Of a stretch of 64,000 nucleotides of DNA, positions 46,442 through 50,314 are shown one piece after another; position 1 is the first letter of the stretch, and every line of letters begins with the position of its first letter. Made by a program: the position numbers and the translations under genes. Location of the stretch: NCBI RefSeq assembly GCF_030068475.1, contig NZ_JAQOSP010000101.1:62001-126000 (forward strand), given 5' to 3'. The notes below the pieces were generated by a model. It made no database searches. It had not been told where the DNA came from and was given only the letters and a program-made list of their open reading frames with translations. The stretch comes from Roseofilum acuticapitatum BLCC-M154. Its GTDB lineage: Bacteria; Cyanobacteriota; Cyanobacteriia; Cyanobacteriales; Desertifilaceae.

Positions 46442-47473
46442 ATGTTTAAGCCATTCTCCAGACACTACCTCAGACCCTTATGGGTTACCCTGGCGCTGTT
46501 CACCTTGATAACCAGCTTATTCTTAAAAGGGTGCAATGTTAACAGCGATCGCCTAACAACCCTGCAAGTAGGCACAAATACTTGGCCAGGATATGATGTG
46601 GCGCTCTATGCACAAGAGGCAGGACTCTTTGCAAAACGGGGTTTAGAGATTGAATTTTCCCGGTTTGATGTGGCTCAAGATACCATTCGCAGTTTGCTCG
46701 CTGGCAATTTAGATGCTGCCTTCATCTCCCTCTGGGAATTAATGCAGGTAGAACCAGGAGATGATCCCCTAGTGTATATCATGGTGACTAATATTTCCTA
46801 TGGCTCCGATGGATTAGTGGTGACGGAAGATATCGCATCGGTTTCAGACTTGAAAGGTAATACCATTGGAGCAAAATTAGGAACCGTGAGCCATTTAATT
46901 TTACTCGAAGCCTTAAAAAATAATGGACTCAATCCAGAAGATGTCAATATTCGAGATATTTCTAATCCAGTAGCGATTGAATCCATCCAGCAAGGGAACA
47001 TCAAGGGAGCAGTATTGTGGGAGCCAGATTTAAGTGAAACAGCACAAGCTATTAATGGCAGCATTCCCTTTACCACCGCAGATGTCGATAGTTTAGTGAT
47101 TGATGGTTTTGTATCTCGTGCCAGTTATGTACAAAGTCATCCAAAAGAACTGACCCAATTTATCTTAGCTTGGTTTGATTTAATGCAAGAAGTTGAAACC
47201 CAGCCCCAAGTCGTCTTTAATGTCGTCGGAGAATTACTGCAACAAAGTGGAGACTCTTTTGCCAGTGATTATTCGGGGTTGAAAAAAGGAGATATTGAGA
47301 TGAATCGTCGCATGTTTGCTGCCAATGGACGCTTAGAAGAAGCAGTAGCAGAAATTGCCCAATTATTGCAGGAAGACCCCCGTCATAACCGCACGATTGT
47401 GGAAGATGTTAAGATTGACCCAACACAGGTGATGTCGGCGATCGCCACTTGGGAAGACGAACAAAACCAGTAA
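46442..47473 (+). CDS. Periplasmic binding protein, NMT1/SsuA/TauA-like
   Basis: 343 residues. Hydrophobic start with LFLKGC suggests a lipoprotein. LQVGTNTWPGYDVALYAQEA, GLFAKRGLEIEFSRFDVAQD and SLLAGNLDAAFISLWELMQV are the classic opening of nitrate/sulfonate/taurine-type binding proteins. No permease or ATPase gene is nearby; instead a histidine kinase follows after 13 nt. This suggests a sensory ligand-binding role, an inference from context. Confidence 0.88.
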   Translation: MFKPFSRHYLRPLWVTLALFTLITSLFLKGCNVNSDRLTTLQVGTNTWPGYDVALYAQEAGLFAKRGLEIEFSRFDVAQDTIRSLLAGNLDAAFISLWELMQVEPGDDPLVYIMVTNISYGSDGLVVTEDIASVSDLKGNTIGAKLGTVSHLILLEALKNNGLNPEDVNIRDISNPVAIESIQQGNIKGAVLWEPDLSETAQAINGSIPFTTADVDSLVIDGFVSRASYVQSHPKELTQFILAWFDLMQEVETQPQVVFNVVGELLQQSGDSFASDYSGLKKGDIEMNRRMFAANGRLEEAVAEIAQLLQEDPRHNRTIVEDVKIDPTQVMSAIATWEDEQNQ

Positions 47474-47486
47474 AACACTACAACTA

Positions 47487-48920
47487 ATGAAATTTCTGCG
47501 TCAGGAACACTCTCAATGGACAGTATCTCAAAGACTTCTTAGCACGTTTATCATTGCCTTTTTAGCCGTGGGTTCAATTGCATTGATTGTAGAATCTTGG
47601 TGGTTGCGAAGAAACTTGGTAGAACAGGTTGAAAGTCGGGCTGAAGCTTTAGCCAAGAGCTTGATTTTTTCAGTAGAAGGGATTGTTGAAGGCAGTTATC
47701 GGGCGAGTCTGAACCGGACGGTACAAAACTATGCCACTTTACCGGCAGTTTTGGAAGTTGTCATTCTTAGCTCTAATCAGCAGATCGTTGCCCATAGCAA
47801 TACTATTTTTCCGAGAAGTTTATACTTTCGTTTGCAATCGGATATCCAAGCCTTAGAACCTTCGCTGCGAATGGAACAGCATGTTCATACAGAAGTGGTT
47901 TTAGACCAAAAATCGATTCTGATTTTTAAGGTTCCATTTTATAGCTCGATTTTTAGTTCTTCGAGTGGTGCAGTCATGCTATTTATCGATCGGGCGGAAA
48001 TGGAAAGACGATCGCTACAGACATTTATCTTCTCTACTGTTATCCTCCTTTCTGCTCTGATCGTGATTCTTCTGGTACTGGGATGGGCGATTCAGCACAC
48101 AGTATTACAGCCTCTTAAAAAAATCAATCAGGCCATAGAAGAGAGCCAAAATAATCAGAATTGTGTGATTGCAAATCGGTTTAATTCTCAAGAATTTACT
48201 CATCTAGCGCAAACGTTTTCAGATGCCTACAATCAGTTACAAACAGAAATTATTGAACGTCGCCAAGCTGAGGATGATCTGCGAAAAAAATCTGATGAGT
48301 TGGAAAAGTTAATTGTGGAGTTGAAACAAACTCAAATTCAACTGATTCAAACGGAGAAAATGTCCAGCTTAGGGCAGTTAGTAGCTGGTATTGCCCATGA
48401 AATTAATAATCCCGTTAGTTTTATTGCGGGTAATTTGCTTCCGATTGAAGGCTACTTCGAGGATTTTTTGCACTGCTTGAAGGCTTATGAAAAATACTAT
48501 CCTGAACCTGTGCCAGAACTTCAAGAGTTAAGGGAAGATTTGGAACTTGATTTTGTGCTACAAGATGTTCAAAATATCTTAAAATCGATGAAACATGGAA
48601 CGGATCGTATTCGCGATATTGTTGTATCGATGCGGAATTTTTCCCGTTTGGATGAAGCGGAGATGAAGGAGGCGGATATTCATCAAGGAATTGAAAGTAC
48701 GCTGCTGATTTATATTGCTGATAATGGTGCGGGAATTTCAGAATCCGATCAACAGCGCTTGTTTGACCCATTTTTTACGACTAAGCCGGTGGGAGAAGGA
48801 ACGGGTTTGGGTCTTTCGATTAGCTATAAAATTGTGGTCGATCGCCATAAGGGTCGTTTAGTGTGTCATTCTGAACTGAACAAGGGCACGGAGTTTGAGA
48901 TTGAGATTCCAGTGTCTTAG
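47487..48920 (+). CDS. Membrane sensor histidine kinase missing the N-box region
   Basis: 477 residues. TM1 about 17-36, periplasmic sensor about 40-180, TM2 about 183-202, HAMP-like linker and coiled coil to about 290. H-box with H304 (LVAGIAHEINNPVSFIAGNL). The ATPase part then goes from HQGIESTLLI straight to YIADNGAGIS (join at about residue 408, nt 48708); normally about 80 residues with the Asn-containing N-box lie between. G1 (DNGAG), F (FDPFF) and G2 (GTGLGLS) boxes are present. Frame is open. ATP binding is probably impaired; a pseudo-kinase role is possible. No response regulator adjacent. Confidence 0.88.
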   Translation: MKFLRQEHSQWTVSQRLLSTFIIAFLAVGSIALIVESWWLRRNLVEQVESRAEALAKSLIFSVEGIVEGSYRASLNRTVQNYATLPAVLEVVILSSNQQIVAHSNTIFPRSLYFRLQSDIQALEPSLRMEQHVHTEVVLDQKSILIFKVPFYSSIFSSSSGAVMLFIDRAEMERRSLQTFIFSTVILLSALIVILLVLGWAIQHTVLQPLKKINQAIEESQNNQNCVIANRFNSQEFTHLAQTFSDAYNQLQTEIIERRQAEDDLRKKSDELEKLIVELKQTQIQLIQTEKMSSLGQLVAGIAHEINNPVSFIAGNLLPIEGYFEDFLHCLKAYEKYYPEPVPELQELREDLELDFVLQDVQNILKSMKHGTDRIRDIVVSMRNFSRLDEAEMKEADIHQGIESTLLIYIADNGAGISESDQQRLFDPFFTTKPVGEGTGLGLSISYKIVVDRHKGRLVCHSELNKGTEFEIEIPVS

Positions 48921-48970: not shown

Positions 48971-49107
48971 TATCAAATCCTTAAATGGTTGCTACATATA
49001 GTCAATTGGCATAAGAATGAGACATAGCTGTAGGGGCGAGCGGCCGCTCGCCCCTACATATACCGTTGTTGTCGATTGATATGTAGCATTCTCTTTTAGA
49101 TTTGATA
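48971..49107. repeat. 137-bp nested inverted-repeat element
   Basis: Outer arms TATCAAATC / GATTTGATA, then GCTACATATAGTCAAT / ATTGATATGTAGC, and at the centre the 28-bp palindrome 49030-49057 (core GGGGCGAGCGGCCGCTCGCC). It also includes TAGTCAATTGG...AATGAGACAT, which relates it to the 1007, 23024 and 62006 elements. Lies between the kinase and the HEAT-repeat gene. Confidence 0.65.
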
Positions 49108-50140: not shown

Positions 50141-50314
50141 ATCATATCAAGTCCGATTGTTCATGTCCGCGAAGCGGAAATACCATGATTAAAAATTTAG
50201 GGAGCGAGACGCTCCCACTCCAGTAATATCAAGGGATTAGAGGAGTGCGAGCATCTTGCTCGCTATAGCAACACCATTCTATTCTTTATTCCCTTTAACT
50301 GGATTTGATATGAT
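50141..50314. repeat. 174-bp inverted-repeat element
   Basis: Ends ATCATATCAAGTCC (50141-50154) and GGATTTGATATGAT (50301-50314) are 13-of-14 inverted matches. Inside: TCCGCGAAGCGGA (also at about 62867), GAGCGAGACGCTC and the repeat GAGTGCGAGCATCTTGCTCG (50243-50263). No gene is visible in the 50069-50350 gap. Confidence 0.6.

Follow-up and report, generated by a model that had tools for sequence, protein, structure and literature searches.

A solute-binding protein and receptor kinase pair of Roseofilum acuticapitatum, with a probable recent loss-of-function deletion in the kinase

The gene pair and the architecture of its products

The 64,000-nt stretch of Roseofilum acuticapitatum BLCC-M154 DNA analysed here (hereafter the window) encodes on its forward strand two consecutive open ORFs, of which the first (46442..47473, 343 aa) specifies an NMT1/TauA-like solute-binding protein, recognised by Pfam and profile matches, and the second (47487..48920, 477 aa) a membrane sensor histidine kinase with an internal 80-aa deletion in its ATPase domain. 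The genes are separated by a spacer of 13 nt, and their neighbours encode a FAD_binding_4 oxidase, a HEAT-repeat protein and a glycosyltransferase. Inspection of the neighbouring genes revealed no permease, transporter ATPase or response regulator adjoining the pair, as an earlier note made from the sequence had stated. A short palindromic GC-rich stretch 3' of the kinase gene (49030-49060, gtaggggcgagcggccgctcgcccctac) may be a terminator or a repeat element. Further downstream, an intergenic stretch (50160-50264) is about 90% identical to a stretch of a congener (L120:9279-9383) and is non-syntenic in the two congeners; it is probably a dispersed repeat.

The binding protein shows matches to the Pfam families NMT1_2 (8e-19) and NMT1 (9e-14), placing its sequence in the NMT1-type binding fold, and its N-terminus bears a lipoprotein-like export segment ending in LKGC. 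Its closest solved structures are the taurine- and sulfonate-binding proteins 6ssy, 2x26 and 3uif, with the taurine-binding protein 6ssy being the nearest (profile E 5e-16). While it shares this fold family with TauA/SsuA, it differs from these transporter components in lacking the operonic ABC permease and ATPase and in being paired with a receptor.

The kinase combines an extracytoplasmic PAS-like sensor domain (approximately aa 68-168; 47688..47990, forward strand), delineated by AlphaFold secondary structure, Foldseek and profile matches, with a HAMP segment and the HisKA/HATPase apparatus. No Pfam match was found in the extracytoplasmic part of the sensor in the proteins scanned; Foldseek matched it to the WalK extracellular domain (7dud/4ywz, target TM 0.71-0.72), and profile matches to WalK were obtained at E 0.003. 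The overall plan of extracytoplasmic PAS fold, HAMP and HisKA/HATPase is common to WalK/YycG and receptors of this type, although the sequence identity is low (13-15%), and the cyanobacterial receptor differs further in being partnered by a solute-binding protein and in the variable outputs of its relatives.

The DHp domain is intact, including the HEINNP motif (H304, E305, N308), whose phospho-acceptor histidine, H304 (48396..48398, forward strand), is invariant in the aligned HEINNP-type members of the family. Its HisKA Pfam score (26.6) falls just under the cut-off of 26.9, as does that of an intact congener (24.7). The G1 box (DNGAGI; 48720..48737, forward strand), recognised by sequence, lies directly behind the deletion scar and is followed by an F box (FDPFF) and a G2 box (GTGLGLS; 48798..48818, forward strand), the latter also identified in the family alignment. 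The ATP-binding domain is nevertheless incomplete: of the four boxes N, G1, F and G2, the N-box is missing along with the neighbouring helices and strands, and alignment to the 111-position Pfam HATPase_c profile starts at position 30, as against position 3 in the congener kinase. The earlier description of two ORFs 13 nt apart, with H304 and the G1, F and G2 boxes retained and about 80 residues including the N-box missing without a frameshift, hence proves accurate, the loss being exactly 80 codons.

The missing segment and its consequence for the kinase

The same gene pair occurs in one of the five congeners examined (G005), whose binding protein is 95% identical to that of the window and whose kinase is full-length (557 aa), with the N-box LNQVFMNLLANAIDAL. 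When the two kinase genes are aligned as DNA, that of the window has a single gap, exactly 240 nt long, across which the frame is kept. In G005 the missing segment is bounded at both ends by a 9-bp direct repeat, TGCTGATTT, whose copies start at L120:8750 and L120:8990 with a spacing of 240 bp, whereas the window retains a single copy as the deletion scar (48703..48711, forward strand), the flanks of which are identical to those of G005 at 40/41 and 19/19 positions. Relative to G005, the window gene lacks one copy of the repeat plus the 231 bp that separate the two. When replication slips between short direct repeats, it typically removes one copy together with the intervening DNA, and the pattern seen here, with the 9-bp repeat on both sides of the missing segment in G005 and single-copy in the window, bears the mark of replication slippage. 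The position of the repeats, in frame and 240 bp apart, might also suggest a reversible on/off switch with interconverting short and long forms. This is hardly credible: one copy and 231 bp are gone, regaining them needs recombination with another genome, and although mosaic exchange occurs at the locus, a donor was not found in the same genome.

Comparison with relatives points to the novelty of the gap. The N-box motif is found in 36 of the 36 other complete kinases of the binding-protein/receptor family. Two of these, L191 and L210, were missed by a stricter first N-box pattern and were rejected as further N-box-less kinases after inspection by eye revealed NILSNAIDV and HLVGNAIDA, respectively; a third candidate, L203, was rejected since a run of N in its assembly splits the gene, with the HATPase domain intact in the second piece. 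In a sample of 121 distinct HE[IL]NNP kinases drawn from all fetched loci and including that of the window, the H-box-to-G1 distance is 175-214 residues in 120 members as against 108 in the window kinase, an outlier too extreme for chance. The search for orthologues with the same gap, which the earlier note had suggested, found none among the family kinases and the spacing set compared. Contig searches with the kinase recovered mostly paralogues alike at the kinase end only, and the paralogues of its own genome match in two pieces, one on each side of the gap. The presence of the N-box and normal spacing in relatives, taken together with these two-piece matches, marks the deletion on sequence grounds as a derived state which, within the sample, occurs in this genome alone. 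As the sensor is single-copy in its own genome (it is missing from four of the five congeners), there is no intact copy to stand in for it.

An artefact of assembly or amplification is quite unlikely to account for the gap, and so is a minority allele in the cultured population. The genome is a draft of 154 contigs, and a kinase gene with dozens of paralogues constitutes a risk region. However, assemblers work with words much longer than a 9-bp repeat, and the contig runs on at both sides of the gap. No paralogue in the same genome exceeds about 70% identity over the region, or 86% over 95 bp or less, so that collapse by a long repeat is not to be expected.

The structural consequence was assessed using AlphaFold models of the window and G005 kinases, with 15 family sequences as input. 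The G005 model has a complete ATPase domain and that of the window half of one, with which Foldseek agrees: the match to the CckA ATPase domain spans 73 columns in the window kinase as against 176 in the intact one. In the numbering of the intact model, the window model is devoid of the N-box helix (438-462), the strands 423-427 and 434-436, and most of 469-479, and the confidence of the remaining ATPase piece, as means of 10-residue blocks, is 42-77 as opposed to 49-88 in the intact kinase. Mutation of the N-box Asn in EnvZ and VicK abolishes or reduces autokinase activity, although a VicK double Asn-to-Ala N-box mutant retains some (PMC5633905). Hence, the N-box residues by themselves are not absolutely required for autokinase activity, but the window kinase has lost the entire substructure. 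Given that mutants of the box elsewhere are impaired, and that here the whole substructure is missing, the kinase very probably cannot autophosphorylate or bind ATP productively, in agreement with the earlier note's expectation that it could not autophosphorylate normally.

The principal proposal of that note was a non-catalytic sensor pair, in which the shortened kinase has been kept and its DHp domain serves as a ligand-controlled phosphatase, a phosphate sink or a response-regulator scaffold. The intact frame and the preserved DHp domain with its HEINNP motif are compatible with such a role, as is the precedent of the pseudo-kinase DivL, which functions without kinase activity and whose CA domain is dispensable (PMC4211667). 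DivL likewise has a histidine-kinase architecture unable to act as a normal kinase (PMC4211667), but in DivL the CA domain is complete with every box present, and it is the His that is lacking, whereas the window kinase keeps the His and has lost half of the CA domain; moreover, DivL is conserved as such, unlike the window allele, and the other complete kinases of the family do not show a conserved loss of catalytic residues. Downstream of the scar there is no stop or frameshift and 1 amino-acid change in 69 codons relative to G005. As no further decay is visible, selection might be acting on the shortened protein; too few changes have accumulated for dN/dS to be informative on the age of the deletion. 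A non-catalytic sensor is nonetheless unlikely, considering that the gap is found in no orthologue and in a single genome at a simple slippage site, that no response regulator is adjacent, and that chance alone keeps the frame in one third of deletions. A more specific version, in which selection keeps a kinase-less, ligand-controlled receptor that dephosphorylates or sequesters a response regulator driven by one of the genome's many other kinases through its DHp domain and binding protein, appears very improbable.

The alternative that the same note had raised, a recently crippled gene, is favoured by the full-length closest relative and the 9-bp slippage junction. Of the pattern it had named as contrary to a sensor role, namely full-length relatives with this gene alone deleted and decaying, the first part is observed and the decay is not yet visible. 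Overall, there is a strong probability that the locus encodes a solute-binding protein and receptor kinase pair whose kinase is a recent loss-of-function allele generated by a 240-bp slippage deletion. The likeliest status of this allele is a recent strain- or species-specific one, rather than an evolved non-catalytic sensor.

Mosaic history of the locus

Over most of its length the kinase gene shares 98-99% identity with that of G005, with a dS of 0.01 over the first 290 codons, and yet a patch in the DHp region (48362..48661, forward strand) shows a dS of 0.85, as against 0.01 upstream of it. The binding-protein gene (within 46442-47161) similarly displays sharp switches between stretches near-identical to and strongly divergent from G005, the upstream oxidase gene has a dS of 0.37, and synteny between the two genomes stops directly behind the kinase gene. 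The alternation of near-identical and divergent stretches points to homologous exchange between lineages at this gene pair. Searches with the window DHp patch and the matching G005 segment found no gene-conversion donor closer than the orthologue in the same genome, the congeners or one other family member. The scar sits at the margin of a near-identical stretch, a position that suggests the exchange preceded the deletion.

The cyanobacterial family of binding proteins and receptors

In 291 genomes of the class, a profile of the binding protein retrieved 34 members with E < 1e-126, well separated from the following group, at 1e-51. Of the 39 testable loci, comprising the profile members and earlier matches, 38 have the same membrane sensor directly 3' of the binding-protein gene, most commonly with an overlap of 13 nt. 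This adjacency across species is characteristic of solute-binding-protein-stimulated receptors, as is the lack of an ABC permease and ATPase alongside, which was seen for the window pair and spot-checked at further loci. The outputs attached to the sensor are diverse: 16 are HEINNP kinases (including that of the window), 18 are HELRTP kinases (some of them hybrid), three are HDLQEP kinases, and in one case (L125:7099-9672) a binding protein of the same type is followed by the sensor module fused to a PAS-GGDEF-EAL unit. Receiver or receiver-kinase genes adjoin the pair at several loci; in L123, CheY-like proteins are encoded after the kinase. At one locus a family sensor kinase (L127:4351-6042) precedes three receiver genes, and the binding-protein gene belonging with it (G024:C1:1682163-1682399) is a remnant with stop codons. 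Another contig carries two binding-protein genes of the family, one (L124:5781-6800) without a sensor behind it and the other (L124:11262-12299) at the contig end.

Solute-binding-protein-stimulated receptors have been described as a general class (PMC9602780, PMC5908839). Sensor kinases and diguanylate cyclases/phosphodiesterases are among the receptors reported to respond to stimulation by a ligand-loaded binding protein (PMC9602780), and the gene of such a kinase often lies beside that of its binding protein (PMC11113362). The cyanobacterial family resembles LuxP-LuxQ, TorT-TorS, AioX-AioS and BctC-BctE in having a transporter-less binding protein encoded directly before a membrane sensor, and, like that class, its receptors include kinases and c-di-GMP enzymes. 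It differs in the NMT1/TauA-branch binding protein, in the WalK-like extracytoplasmic PAS domain and, in the window, in the broken kinase. In the literature collection searched, no report of a cyanobacterial NMT1 binding-protein/receptor pair was found. The genomic features of the family fit those of solute-binding-protein-driven receptors, with ligand binding and docking being putative.

In the intact relatives, the binding protein would capture a small solute, possibly sulfonate-, taurine- or nitrate-like, and, once loaded, dock on the WalK-like extracytoplasmic domain, from which the signal would pass via HAMP to the HisKA/HATPase kinase and thence to response regulators. The kinase gene of the present genome has lost 240 bp, most probably by slippage between the two 9-bp direct repeats, and with them, in frame, the helices and strands that open the ATPase domain, together with the N-box. 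The shortened kinase could still be exported and dimerise, and perhaps meet the binding protein.

The deletion is a clear-cut natural example of a kinase lost at a slippage site, and also a warning that a missing box is not to be read as a new mechanism. The family is the more durable find: it represents a conserved cyanobacterial module whose output has been exchanged among several types of kinase and, in one instance, for c-di-GMP enzymes, such that ligand and docking, if studied once, could apply to many species.
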